The notes below the pieces were generated by a model. The model ran no database searches. It saw only the letters and a program-made list of their open reading frames with translations, and was not told the DNA's origin. The position numbers and the translations under genes were made by a program. 64,000 nucleotides of DNA from Hoeflea algicola (GTDB lineage Bacteria; Pseudomonadota; Alphaproteobacteria; Rhizobiales; Rhizobiaceae): positions 2,170,001 through 2,234,000 of the forward strand of contig NZ_JAOVZR010000001.1 in NCBI RefSeq assembly GCF_026619415.1, read 5' to 3'. This document shows, in pieces, positions 34,273 to 39,892 of the stretch. Each line of letters starts with the position of its first letter. The stretch's first letter is position 1.

Positions 34273-34301
34273 CTTGATCCCGGGTTTCGCCACAATTAGA
34301 T
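34273..34301 (+). promoter_or_regulatory. Candidate promoter for rpoH
   Basis: CTTGAT (34273-34278) and TTAGAT (34296-34301) are separated by 17 bases and lie upstream of the rpoH GTG at 34390. The match to sigma-70 boxes is moderate. Confidence 0.4.
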
Positions 34302-34389
34302 GACACCTAGACAGGTTCGAACGCATCGTCCGGTTCGAGCCGGGAAGCTTGCCGTCAGGAAGCTGAAATTCGGGAGAAAGGGTGCTGTT

Positions 34390-35291
34390 GTGGCCCAATC
34401 AAGTATGCCAACAATCTCCGCAGGCGAGAACGGTCTTAACCGTTACCTAGCGGAAATTCGCCGGTTCCCCATGCTGGAGCCTCAGGAAGAATACATGCTC
34501 GCCAAGCGTTTCCTCGAACATGAGGACACCAAGGCGGCGCACAAGCTCGTCACCAGCCATCTCCGGCTGGTCGCCAAGATCGCCATGGGCTATCGCGGCT
34601 ACGGCCTGCCGATCGGGAAGTGATCTCCGAGGGCAATGTCGGGCTGATGCAGGCGGTCAAGAAATTCGATCCGGAACGCGGTTTCCGGCTTGCCACCTAC
34701 GCCATGTGGTGGATCAAGGCCTCTATCCAGGAATACATTCTGCGCTCCTGGAGCCTCGTCAAGATGGGCACCACCGCCAACCAGAAGCGGCTGTTCTTCA
34801 ACCTGCGCAAGGTCAAGAGCAAGATTCAGGCTGTCGAGGATGGCGACCTGCGCCCCGACCAGGTGGCTGAAATCGCCACCAAGCTCAATGTCTCGGAAGC
34901 CGAAGTGATTTCGATGAACCGGCGGCTTGCAGGCGACGCCTCGCTGAACGCGCCGATCAAGGCTTCCGAGGGCGAATCCGGCCAATGGCAGGACTGGCTG
35001 GTCGACACATCCGAGAGCCAGGAAGACATGCTGGTCGAACAGGATCAGCTTGAAGGCCGCCGAGCCATGCTGCAGGGCGCGCTCGACGTGCTCAACGAGC
35101 GCGAACGGCGTATCTTCGAGGCGCGGCGTCTGCGTGACGATCCGATCACGCTGGAAGACCTGTCGACCGAATTCAGCATCAGCCGCGAGCGGGTGCGCCA
35201 GATCGAGGTTCGCGCTTTTGAGAAGGTCCAGGACGCCGTCCAGAAGGCCGCTGCTGCGCGCGACAAGGCACTGGTCACCGTCGCCGACTGA
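34390..35291 (+). pseudogene. rpoH: RNA polymerase heat-shock sigma factor RpoH, frameshifted
   Basis: A sigma-32 protein whose gene is broken. Residues from GTG 34390 (AQSSMPTISAGENGLNRYLAEI) to GYRGYGLPIG match region 1.2/2, then an in-frame TGA at 34621-34623 ends it. The next frame from 34620 begins VISEGNVGLMQAVKKFDPERGF and runs to the end of region 4. Adding one base at 34615-34617 (GGG to GGxG) gives GLPIGEVISEG and 300 residues, the usual RpoH length. Read error is more likely than loss of a core sigma factor, though rhizobia often have two rpoH genes. A terminator follows. Confidence 0.85.
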
Positions 35292-35318
35292 CCGCACACT
35301 GATTGCGAAACATTTGCG

Positions 35319-35350
35319 ACCCCGGAAGCGCCCCCCGCTTTCGGGGTTTT
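35319..35350 (+). terminator. Terminator after rpoH
   Basis: ACCCCGGAAGCG pairs with CGCTTTCGGGGT (one wobble) around five C, followed by TTTT and a T-rich stretch. It starts 27 bases after the rpoH stop. Confidence 0.8.
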
Positions 35351-35447
35351 GTTTGCGTGGGTTTTGGGGACCGGCATTGCCCCGTCATGCTCGGCACAAA
35401 CCTTCGTCATCCTCGGTCTCCAAGGCGCCATTCCGATCATCCGTGTG

Positions 35448-35545
35448 CCGGACTTGATCCGGCATCCAGCGACCCGGCGTCTGCCGGGTCAAAGGACTCT
35501 TTCCGCCCAAGGACTTGGACGTGCTGGATACCGGATCAAGTCCGG
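35448..35545. repeat. Nested palindromic element
   Basis: A 23-base arm at 35448-35470 pairs with 35523-35545 (22 of 23), with an inner hairpin GACCCGGC...GCCGGGTC at 35471-35490. The arms carry CCGGACTTGATCCGG, typical of short palindromic elements scattered in alphaproteobacterial genomes. Confidence 0.75.
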
Positions 35546-36340
35546 TAAGACGGTGTGGAGTGATCGCGCCCGCAATGCGTCGCGGCATGTATGTCCTGTC
35601 CCGCCAGCCCACCATCCACACCAAAACCCCGCGCGCGAAACATAACTCGCCGACGGCCTGGGGTATGTGCTGGTCCGGCAAAAACAATCCGGACTTGTGG
35701 GGCGCGGGCGAATGGCCCGTGGTGCTATGGAGTATGTGGCTTGGCGCAGTCAGCCGCGCCCCACCGGTGAGGGACACATGCGCCTTCCGGGCGCACATGG
35801 GGCTCCTCCCCGCGATCAGGTCGACACAGTCCCGGACGGTTTCGTCTCGTTCGGCTGAACCGCCAACCGAACCCGCCCACTCCCGATCTGCTCCCGGCCT
35901 CAATACCGTCCAGCCTGATCAGGCCTTGTCAGGACCAGCGTCTTTCGACGCCGCCGGTGCTGGCGCGGACCAGCAGGTCTCCGGTTCCGGCTTTTTTGCC
36001 GGAATGTTCCCAATCGCCGAGTTTCTGGCCCGCAGGTACGGTGCCCGTACGCCAGAACTCACCGCCTCCCGCCGGCCAAGGCTCCGTCAGCCCCGGCCAT
36101 CCGCTTGGAACGGAAGGTCGGATGAGTGTGGCACGGGGGCAAAGGGTGTGGAAAAAATGGTGGGATTTTTTGGATGGGGTGAGTGCTTGTTGCGTCGAAA
36201 ATGAATGGCTACTGTCTTTCATGCAATGTGGCTCTGGCGCAATAGGAACAAATAACCAGCACACACCGATTAGGAGTTAACGACAGACCGCTGTCTTATC
36301 GATTGAACCCTGCTATGATACGCAACCTAGGGAGTCATGC
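35546..36340. other. Non-coding stretch before the Shedu-type gene
   Basis: About 800 bases with no recognisable protein. It contains a short inverted repeat (GTCCGG/CCGGAC at 35673-35694) and, near its right end, a possible -10 box TATGAT at 36314-36319 and an AGGGAG ribosome site at 36329-36334 serving the next gene. The rest is unassigned. Confidence 0.45.
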
Positions 36341-37519
36341 ATGGACGATGTCAGCGAGCAAGAAATCCATCTTCACATGAGGACCGACAAGACCTACGTC
36401 AGCCCGGTTTTTAAAGGCTTTGTGGGCGAGAAGGTCCGGATTGCGAACAAGGTTATCGACAATCCGGGCGGCCACGAATTCGGGCTGGTCAAGGACGAGA
36501 TCGTGCTTCGAGAAACGCCCGCCGGGCGCTTCCAGATCAAGGCAACCTTCTTTGAGGCCAGCCGCGGTATCCAGACGCTCACCATCCAGAAGTTCACGAA
36601 GACCGGAGCCAAGGAATACTTTACATTTCGGCCCAACGAAATCACCCGACTGCTCAAGTTCCTGACAGACATTAAGCGAATTAATTTCCCCGACGAAGGT
36701 AAGATTAACATCTCGGACGCGGATCTTGAGCAGTTGCTGCTCAGCCCGGCCCAGATGAAGCGATTGGCAGCCGACAACCAACCGCTACTCGCAGAACTGG
36801 CCCGCAACGAGATCACGACCGAAGACGTCATCGCGCTAGGCTATCGCAAACGTGAGCTCCGCACATTCGAACGTCTTCTGACGGAGCAAGCCTTCTTTCA
36901 GGCCACGCGGGAGCACCGAGGCCTTACGCCGGAGGGTGTGTGGCAGAAGTTCTTCGAGCGCAATGCATGGATTTTCGGCACCAGCCTGTCGCTGATCCAC
37001 TTCGGTCCGCTCGACAACCGCAAGATGGAACAGGTCGTTCGAGGGTTTTCGGTCACCGGTCCAGGTAAGCGCGTCGATGCGCTGCTCCGATCAAATGCAG
37101 TCGTATCGACGACTTGCTTTGTGGAGATTAAGCGACACGACACAGCTCTTGTCACCGATGACCAGTATCGGTCCGGTATCTGGCAACCGTCCAAAGAACT
37201 GTCGGGGGCCGTCGCCCAGATACAGGGAACCGTGGCGTCGGCATTAGACCAATGGCACTCGCAGGAAACTGTGTATGCCGTCGACGGTACCCCGACGGGA
37301 GAAATCCTATTCACCACCGAACCGCGCTCATATGTCATATGCGGCTGCCTTTCGGAGTTTCAGACAGCCCCCGGGGTCAATGACCGAAAGTTCCGTTCGT
37401 TCGAACTCTTTCGCCGGAATCTTTTGCGGCCGGAGGTGGTCACATTCGATGAACTCTACCAAAGGGCGCGGATGATCGTTGAGGCAGATCAGGGAACAAC
37501 AGACGCCAACCATGCCTGA
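36341..37519 (+). CDS. sduA: Shedu-type anti-phage nuclease (SduA, DUF4263)
   Basis: A 392-residue protein with a C-terminal DUF4263 (Shedu) PD-(D/E)XK nuclease domain. Visible are ERNAWIFG near residues 206-213, Asp246 in GKRVDALL, Glu262 and Lys264 in FVEIKRHD, and glutamines near 293-295. The N-terminal 170 residues have no recognised fold and look family-specific; they may sense infection. AGGGAG 6 bases upstream fixes the start. The next gene overlaps its end by 8 bases. Family knowledge: Shedu protects against phages as a single-gene system, probably by cleaving DNA. Confidence 0.8.
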   Translation: MDDVSEQEIHLHMRTDKTYVSPVFKGFVGEKVRIANKVIDNPGGHEFGLVKDEIVLRETPAGRFQIKATFFEASRGIQTLTIQKFTKTGAKEYFTFRPNEITRLLKFLTDIKRINFPDEGKINISDADLEQLLLSPAQMKRLAADNQPLLAELARNEITTEDVIALGYRKRELRTFERLLTEQAFFQATREHRGLTPEGVWQKFFERNAWIFGTSLSLIHFGPLDNRKMEQVVRGFSVTGPGKRVDALLRSNAVVSTTCFVEIKRHDTALVTDDQYRSGIWQPSKELSGAVAQIQGTVASALDQWHSQETVYAVDGTPTGEILFTTEPRSYVICGCLSEFQTAPGVNDRKFRSFELFRRNLLRPEVVTFDELYQRARMIVEADQGTTDANHA

Positions 37520-38408
37520 AGCACAAAAATCCAGCGATATAGGCATGAAACGCGGCCGCGTGATCGCGAACATGACCCCGGACAAGCAACTCGACCTGAT
37601 CGCCGAGGGGCTGCCGATCCTGATGAAAAGTGCCACCGACCTGCTCAATGCCGCTATTGCTTTACCGGGTCACTCCAGAGCTTCCAAGATACTTGAAGGT
37701 CACGCTCTGGAGGAGGCAGCAAAGATACTAATCCTCATGGACATCGTCAGGTGCCCACCCAAGATCAGGCCTTCGCTCATTGGACCAATGATGAGGCTGT
37801 TCTACGACCACCTCGCGAGGTTGCTGTACATCGAAGCCCAGCACTGGCGGCCGATGGACCTGAACGAACTCCGTACATACGTAAACAATGAACGCCGCTC
37901 CCATTATCTGGAGGGTTACAACGGCGAGTACATCCTGCCGAACTCGGCTACATCGACCAGAGAGACCCTTCTATACGCCGACATCATCACATACGAAGAA
38001 GGGGACCCAATTTGGAGCGAACCCAGCTATGATGACCCGGAAAGCCTAACGTTCCCGCAGTATCCAACCCCATGGAAGACCTGTGAGGCCCTCCAGACTG
38101 TAGGCGCCTTCACCCGAAAAGGTCTCGACCTCGTCTCCTCGGCATGGGCCGAAGTCGATTTCTCGGGAGAGGAAACGTCAGGGCAAAGCTCAGAGCTAGC
38201 CTACAATATGCTCAAGTCCCTGGAAGGTGAGAACCTCATTTCCGAAAACGCAACGAACGATCACGTCGGGCATTTGCGGCATAGCTGGCAGTTGCCGATG
38301 TATCGACTCGATTTTAAAAGGCAGGAAGTGTCTTTGGAAGAACTAAAGGAGCAGCGGGAAGCCAATTTCTGGGCCGAGGTAGGATACGACGGGCAAGACT
38401 ATTACTAA
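37512..38408 (+). CDS. HEPN/AbiV-like protein paired with SduA
   Basis: A 298-residue, mostly helical protein without signal peptide or membrane segments. Residues 35-80 (SATDLLNAAIALPGHSRASKILEGHALEEAAKILILMDIVR) resemble the AbiV/HEPN abortive-infection core with its Glu-Glu-Ala-x-Lys helix. The rest is not recognised. The ATG at 37512 overlaps the sduA stop by 8 bases; a TTG at 37479 is an alternative. Coupling to SduA suggests a partner, but this resemblance is by eye only. Confidence 0.6.
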   Translation: MPEAQKSSDIGMKRGRVIANMTPDKQLDLIAEGLPILMKSATDLLNAAIALPGHSRASKILEGHALEEAAKILILMDIVRCPPKIRPSLIGPMMRLFYDHLARLLYIEAQHWRPMDLNELRTYVNNERRSHYLEGYNGEYILPNSATSTRETLLYADIITYEEGDPIWSEPSYDDPESLTFPQYPTPWKTCEALQTVGAFTRKGLDLVSSAWAEVDFSGEETSGQSSELAYNMLKSLEGENLISENATNDHVGHLRHSWQLPMYRLDFKRQEVSLEELKEQREANFWAEVGYDGQDYY

Positions 38409-38618
38409 CTTCAGATAGACGTGCCAGAGAGAACTGATTGAAGCAGATCTCAGACAATTCAGCCCAGGATAATGACCAACATCATTCCAATCTCGCGGAG
38501 AACGAGAGCCTTTCCCAGCCTTGCCCAAACCCGCCCGCCGCTTTACCACTCAGGCCTCTTTCAAAAGCCATCTTTTCCTGTGCTCCGGCGGACATGTGGG
38601 CAATCGAGTGGGCAGACC

Positions 38619-39680
38619 GTGAAGCGCATCTTCTTTCGAGTGATCTTTGCGTTTGGACTGGTGTCCGGCCTGAGCGGGTGCATCGGGGTTTCCTATTATG
38701 CGCAGTCGCTGAAGGGGCATGTCGAGATCATGACGGCGCGCCAGCCGGTCGCCAGGCTGATCGACGATGCGTCGACGCCCGAGGGCTTGCGCGCGCGCAT
38801 GGCCTCGGCGCGCGCCATCAGGCAGTTTGCTACCGACAAACTCGACCTGCCCGACAATGCGAGCTACCGCTCTTACGTCGATATTGGCCGGGACTATGTA
38901 ACCTGGGCGGTGTTTGCAGCACCCGAATTTTCGCTCATGCCGCAGGTCTGGTGTTTTCCGGTGTTCGGCTGCGTGCCCTATCGGGGATATTTCTTCAAGG
39001 ACATTGCGGTTAAAACCGCTGCCGGGCTTCAGCAACAGGGTTTTGACGTCCATGTCTCGGGCGTCACCGCCTATTCGACGCTGGGCTGGTCAAGTGATCC
39101 GCTGCTGTCGACCATGCTGCGCCAGGATGAAACCTATCTCGCGGGCCTGGTGTTTCATGAACTGGCCCACCAGCGCGTTTATGTCGATGACGATTCCGCC
39201 TTCAACGAGGCCTTCGCCGTGACTGTCGAAACCACCGGGGTGAAGACATGGCTGCGCGCGAATGGCGATACGGCGGGACTTGGCCGCTACGAGGCTGGGC
39301 TGAAGCGCAATGCCCAGTTTCTTGCGCTGGTGGCGCAAACCCGGACCGAGTTGAGCAACGTCTATCAGGGCACTGGCAGCGTTGCGCAGAAACGCGCCGC
39401 GAAGGCAGCCGCGATCGAACGGCTCAGGACGCGCACCCGGCGGATGCGCAAGCAGCAATGGGGTGGATTTAGCGGATACGATGCCTGGGTCGAGGCCCCG
39501 ATCAACAATGCCAAGATCGCCGCGACATCGGTTTATAATGACCGGGTGCCGGCTTTTGTGCGCCTGTTCGAGCTGTGTGCAGGCGACTATCCACGGTTTT
39601 ACAAAGCGGTGGGGCGGTTGGGCCGGCTAGCCAAGGCAGATAGGGCCGCGGCGCTTGAGGCAGCAAAGAGGTGCGAGTGA
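38619..39680 (+). CDS. Lipoprotein zinc aminopeptidase (COG4324 type)
   Basis: A 353-residue predicted aminopeptidase anchored as a lipoprotein. A GTG start at 38619 gives a signal VKRIFFRVIFAFGLVSGLSGC with the lipobox LSGC near residue 21. The zinc site is HELAHQ near residue 185, with the downstream glutamate in NEAFAV about 15 residues later. An upstream ATG at 38472 would add 49 residues without a signal. It follows the HEPN-like gene by 210 bases on the same strand, and its own 3' end faces the palindromic repeat. Substrate unknown. Confidence 0.78.
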   Translation: MKRIFFRVIFAFGLVSGLSGCIGVSYYAQSLKGHVEIMTARQPVARLIDDASTPEGLRARMASARAIRQFATDKLDLPDNASYRSYVDIGRDYVTWAVFAAPEFSLMPQVWCFPVFGCVPYRGYFFKDIAVKTAAGLQQQGFDVHVSGVTAYSTLGWSSDPLLSTMLRQDETYLAGLVFHELAHQRVYVDDDSAFNEAFAVTVETTGVKTWLRANGDTAGLGRYEAGLKRNAQFLALVAQTRTELSNVYQGTGSVAQKRAAKAAAIERLRTRTRRMRKQQWGGFSGYDAWVEAPINNAKIAATSVYNDRVPAFVRLFELCAGDYPRFYKAVGRLGRLAKADRAAALEAAKRCE

Positions 39681-39774: not shown

Positions 39775-39892
39775 GATCTCCCCCTTGCGGGGGAGATGTC
39801 ACGAAGTGACAGAGGGGGCAAAAACCCGCCTCCTGTGATTGCCGCGCCCCCTCTGTCGGCCATGCCGACATCTCCCCCGCAAGGGGGAGATC
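39775..39892. repeat. Perfect 26-bp inverted repeat element
   Basis: A 26-base arm at 39775-39800 reappears as its exact reverse complement at 39867-39892, with further pairing of AGAGGGGGC and GCCCCCTCT inside. Core CTCCCCCTTGCGGGGGAGAT marks the rhizobial dispersed palindromic family. It separates the convergent peptidase and hypothetical genes and may terminate transcription of both. Confidence 0.85.

Follow-up and report, generated by a model that had tools for sequence, protein, structure and literature searches.

Is a Shedu nuclease gene that overlaps a second gene by a few bases one half of a two-gene defence system, or do two unrelated defences simply share a place on the chromosome? 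That Shedu works as a single-gene system is already published (PMC8565338). The locus examined here lies in a 64,000-nucleotide stretch of Hoeflea algicola DNA (the window) and differs from that description, since its sduA is followed by an overlapping gene whose product resembles the abortive-infection protein AbiV. Among the paper titles listed for Shedu with HEPN or with AbiV none names such a pair, although a report of one could exist.

We consider it probable that the locus holds two independent single-gene anti-phage defences, placed head to tail as strain-specific cargo at a variable chromosomal site. The independence of the two defences is supported by the finding that in the loci sampled the two genes usually occur apart and the AbiV-like gene has no constant neighbour. 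The cargo reading is supported by a lower-G+C insert at a site of changing content. A small piece of defence cargo carrying both genes would have arrived between the rpoH and aminopeptidase genes. SduA would bind the ends of linear phage DNA and then nick it through its PD-(D/E)XK domain, and the AbiV-like protein, as a second line of defence, would use its HEPN-type domain to block translation or cleave RNA once a cell is infected. Both defences would be self-sufficient, one acting against DNA and the other against gene expression, and possibly read from one message. We infer these activities as well as the mutual independence of the two proteins. One point of interest is that two single-gene defences with different targets (DNA; translation or RNA) may share one transcript. 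The coordinates of all features are collected in Table 1.

Table 1. Features of the sduA locus and its surroundings (positions in the window)
Feature	Position	Strand	Remarks
rpoH-like sigma-32 gene (left flank)	34300..35291	+	two frames in this assembly
Left palindromic element	35448..35545	.	dispersed repeat
'Non-coding lead stretch' (most of it)	35613..36179	.	conserved non-coding genus backbone
Insert (no match in compared same-genus loci)	36180..38508	.	contains both genes; from comparison with relatives; lower G+C
sduA	36341..37519	+	Shedu nuclease ORF of 392 aa; residues 197-373 form the C-terminal PD-(D/E)XK (SduA_C) domain
Overlap of sduA and AbiV-like gene	37512..37519	+	8 bases; AbiV-like ATG at 37512
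AbiV-like gene	37512..38408	+	ORF from ATG 37512, 298 aa; stop at 38408
HEPN_AbiV-like domain	37599..38039	+	residues 30-176; profile comparison with canonical AbiV
C-terminal part beyond AbiV match	38040..38405	+	residues 177-298; own conserved residues W212, W259, P262
Putative aminopeptidase gene, PF10023 (right flank)	38472..39680	+	start codon position provisional
Right palindromic element	39775..39892	.	dispersed repeat; in relatives too, downstream of the aminopeptidase gene

sduA and its overlap with the downstream gene

A reading of the locus from its sequence only had named the first gene product an SduA-like DUF4263 nuclease with Asp246, Glu262 and Lys264, and both the family and the residue numbers are borne out. 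The protein matches the Pfam family SduA_C (PF14082; DUF4263) with 97.3 bits against a cut-off of 27. Its match to PADLOC SduA (PDLC00394) reaches 494.6 bits (E 5.2e-149; protein residues 5-385, profile positions 3-388 of 392), well inside the PADLOC limits for Shedu of E 1e-25 and 50% coverage (PMC8565338). A sequence search of the PDB retrieved the solved SduA chain 8ti8_A (E 7.9e-14, residues 196-381), whose VD and EIK motifs align with D246, E262 and K264. With a full-length PADLOC match, the nuclease domain and the active-site residues in common with known Shedu, the product is by these comparisons a bona fide SduA carrying the PD-(D/E)XK residues, and the Shedu of the window is of the ordinary kind. 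According to a review (PMC12904381), EcSduA, a Shedu nuclease, attaches to the ends of DNA and nicks at a fixed distance, and the N-terminal domains of Shedu proteins differ among members.

The 8-base overlap reported in the sequence-only reading is present, with the ATG of the second gene inside the end of sduA. Translational coupling across the overlap is plausible, and the two genes may share one message; the overlap alone is nevertheless weak evidence for a joint system. A promoter and terminator scan of the locus returned nothing informative: no sigma-70-type promoter match upstream of sduA was found in 36100-38650, where 1.3 would be expected by chance, a count that says little here.

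Pairing of the two genes in other genomes

The overlap had been taken to indicate a two-gene variant of Shedu, in which the AbiV-like protein would regulate SduA or act as its partner effector and the overlap would keep the two products in proportion. The overlap and the shared strand do fit such a joint system and count against independent defences. A true variant was expected to recur as the same pair in other genomes. We ran an SduA profile against the surroundings of the AbiV-like gene, covering up to 5 kb to either side at 60 genome loci, some of which end at contig ends, and up to 4.5 kb at 18 plasmid loci taken from 34 plasmid records with the gene. The genome loci were found by one conserved peptide pattern, which misses relatives that do not carry it. 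SduA was present at one of the 60 genome loci and at none of the 18 on plasmids. The homologues in these loci (L005-L022 on plasmids, L023-L082 on chromosomes; annotated as 'hypothetical protein' or 'AbiV family') belong to the same AbiV-like family as the window protein but differ from it in having SduA nearby in only 1 of 78 cases.

The single positive locus, L074 of Methylobacterium brachythecii, is the genome G174 as far as identical scores tell. It supplies one further co-location in favour of a two-gene variant, but its two genes are divergently oriented, its SduA is 39% identical to that of the window over residues 100-381, and a helix-turn-helix gene (HTH_3) stands directly before this SduA on the same strand (L002:2442-3278, L087:1225-2310).

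Searches that started from SduA agree. The AbiV-like gene was found near it at one of 15 loci of the order sample (G174 again, with about 1.5 kb of flank), at none of six plasmid loci, which come from the best 40 of 128 plasmid records with an SduA relative, and not at the one same-genus locus. Even plasmid SduA homologues 61-64% identical to the window protein have no AbiV-like neighbour. Two of these homologues, both on Rhizobium plasmids, are immediately preceded on their own strand by a gene annotated as an AbiGi-family antitoxin (L156:3226-5158, L157:3262-5158). Among 17 other genomes of the genus sduA occurs in one, as a 40% relative on a different contig from that genome's flank genes.

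Of the 397 genomes in the order sample, 16 have SduA and four have the AbiV-like gene. Both occur in two, the window's own genome and G174, and are adjacent in each, which speaks for a joint system and against independent defences. With the window genome left out, about 0.1 co-occurrences would be expected by a hand estimate and one is seen, an excess that clustering of defence genes would also explain. Within the loci sampled, conserved pairing of sduA with the AbiV-like gene is absent, and we regard the two-gene variant as unlikely.

A related proposal is a layered unit of two effectors. Here the AbiV-like protein would be translated in step with SduA, a phage surviving the cutting of DNA ends would meet shutdown of RNA or translation, and Methylobacterium would represent a second, separately arranged case. 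We think this improbable. In the family tree the window protein falls into none of the well supported sets that comprise half the rows or fewer, and the tree therefore gives no answer as to a separate origin of the Methylobacterium pairing.

At the other extreme the two genes could be chance neighbours at a defence hotspot with no functional link, the AbiV-like gene perhaps having its own expression signals. The sole difference between this view and independent defences is its denial of a shared message. Company of this kind is common for the AbiV-like gene: by a hand count of annotations, genes of toxin-antitoxin or other defence type lie within 4.5 kb at 12 of the 18 plasmid loci, for example Qat, SIR2, AbiEii, HipA, VapBC and TIR. 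The gene has no constant neighbour, the commonest neighbour cluster occurring in 4 of 52 deduplicated loci (69 loci above 200 bits before near-copies at 85% were removed). Yet the 8-base overlap makes some coupling of translation plausible, and we think pure chance improbable.

A long subfamily related to AbiV

The window member of the AbiV-like family is missed by the models of Pfam, PADLOC and NCBIfam, none of which it matches at E up to 1. It does not reach the Pfam model HEPN_AbiV (PF18728) directly, and a sequence search of the PDB with it gave nothing useful. Its relatives connect it to the family. Against the PF18728 cut-off of 27.1 bits, the homologues from Gordonia (46.0) and Prescottella (37.8) score above, that from Rhodococcus falls just under (26.9), that from Azospirillum reaches 15.5 and that from Gemmobacter has no match. 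NCBI names two homologues as AbiV family. Alignment A2 combines the window protein with sequences from 42 of the 60 genome loci, the other 18 being near-copies, fragments, frame-broken or not taken. Of its 43 members, 12 match PF18728, and no other family, at E 0.01 or better; a PADLOC scan of the same members returned four families with one member each (best E 0.0046). Compared as a profile with seven canonical AbiV domains (A3), A2 aligns over residues 30-176 with a probability of 95.8% and an E of 8.2e-9. The resemblance of residues 35-80 to an abortive-infection HEPN core, noticed in the sequence-only reading, thus holds at the level of the family, with no direct hit.

Conservation within the subfamily points the same way. 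Invariant in all 43 rows of A2 are E67, E68, K71, R80, H100, R150, E151, Y155, W168 and P171, and position 103 is always basic (R in 35, K in 8). H100 aligns with a histidine that is invariant in all seven domains of A3. The account of AbiV in a survey of HEPN proteins (PMC3710099) gives it no histidine of the Rx4-6H motif and places a conserved histidine before the motif instead, which fits H100 lying upstream of the basic residue 103. The upstream H100 is present in 43 of 43 rows, and no conserved histidine appears among the invariant columns of A2 5-7 residues past position 103.

The AlphaFold model of the protein is mainly helical and confident (pLDDT 90, pTM 0.88). Its best Foldseek match in the PDB has an E of 0.97, so that the HEPN fold is predicted from sequence profiles. 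That the product is an unrelated helical protein would agree with this Foldseek result and with the missing direct matches, but is very improbable given two homologues above the PF18728 cut-off, the 12 A2 members that match PF18728 alone and the profile comparison with AbiV.

By these profile matches the product of 37512-38408 is a HEPN_AbiV relative of a long subfamily that has no model of its own. It shares with AbiV the homologous residues 30-176, the EE..K motif and the upstream histidine followed three residues later by R or K. It differs in length, with 298 residues against the 201 of lactococcal AbiV (PMC3231927), in escaping the Pfam model, and in an additional C-terminal part of some 120 residues outside the AbiV match with conserved positions of its own (W212 in 43 of 43 rows, W259 in 40, P262 in 42). 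Lactococcal AbiV is described as binding the phage protein SaV and as probably inhibiting translation (PMC3231927). In alignment A1 the window protein is 26-52% identical to 15 homologues. Most of the subfamily comes from Alphaproteobacteria, with further members in Actinomycetota, Nitrospirota, Chloroflexota and other groups. Support for the gene having come from a phage is lacking: no match was found among 50,697 phage records, and of three stretches of viral contigs that matched a pattern none was confirmed.

Variable DNA in the gap from rpoH to the aminopeptidase gene

Comparison of the locus with relatives used the 7 of 17 other same-genus genomes in which a single contig spans both flank genes. 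All seven keep the order of RluA-family gene, rpoH, variable DNA and aminopeptidase gene, and the distance from rpoH to the aminopeptidase gene, between matched parts, ranges from roughly 2.4 to 9.7 kb. The cargo in this gap (35291-38514 in the window) is different in each, and neither sduA nor the AbiV-like gene is present at any of these loci. DNA homology to the relatives stops at 36155-36179 and returns at 38508-38520, which defines an insert of about 2.3 kb holding both genes. Their G+C contents are 56.1% (sduA) and 54.1% (AbiV-like gene), compared with 64.6% and 61.1% for the flank genes.

What the relatives carry at the site was identified from 20 ORFs, chosen by length and position. 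It comprises an IS66 transposase with a GGDEF-EAL gene; a metallophosphoesterase gene beside an unassigned frame of 313 aa; an ATPase-like gene; an AraC regulator; an ArsP permease with a LysR gene; and HupE, LigB, LysR and kinase genes. In L147 three frames were scanned and nothing was recognised. A PADLOC scan of nine ORFs at the site in relatives found no clear defence system, with weak partial matches in two. In G413 (L144:1430-3786, minus strand) the PUA-like/metallophosphoesterase gene has its frame overlapped by the 313-aa frame upstream, possibly another two-gene cargo unit. On the left flank, the rpoH-like gene of the window is split into the ORFs 34300-34623 and 34620-35291; it is a single frame in 17 of 17 same-genus genomes, and the split is either an assembly error or a real break.

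An inserted position had been proposed from palindromic elements on both sides and from a non-coding lead stretch. The insert is real, but neither feature is evidence for it. The palindromes exist and are dispersed repeats with copies or part-copies at other places in the same genome. Elements of the left type lie downstream of rpoH in the relatives L143, L145 and L149, and in L100, L111 and L112, which have no sduA there, the right element closely follows the aminopeptidase gene on its downstream side. Copies elsewhere and similar flank elements in insert-free relatives rule the palindromes out as insert markers. The lead stretch is homologous in same-genus relatives, so that it is genus backbone and no part of the insert. 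It is not a gene either, as its mismatches to L145 are spread over the codon phases (32/31/25) and accompanied by single-base gaps.

The element at 35613-36179 is G+C-rich and non-coding, lies downstream of rpoH and has a mean column identity of 70% across seven same-genus copies. Up to an E of 1 it matches no Rfam family. In its predicted fold 18 of 141 pairs are changed on both sides, with an unfavourable covariation term (+6.0). Beyond the genus a single 27-base match was found among 121 genomes of the family. The window genome holds a diverged second copy of the element (G000:C1:3671997-3672586), and more copies occur in G399.
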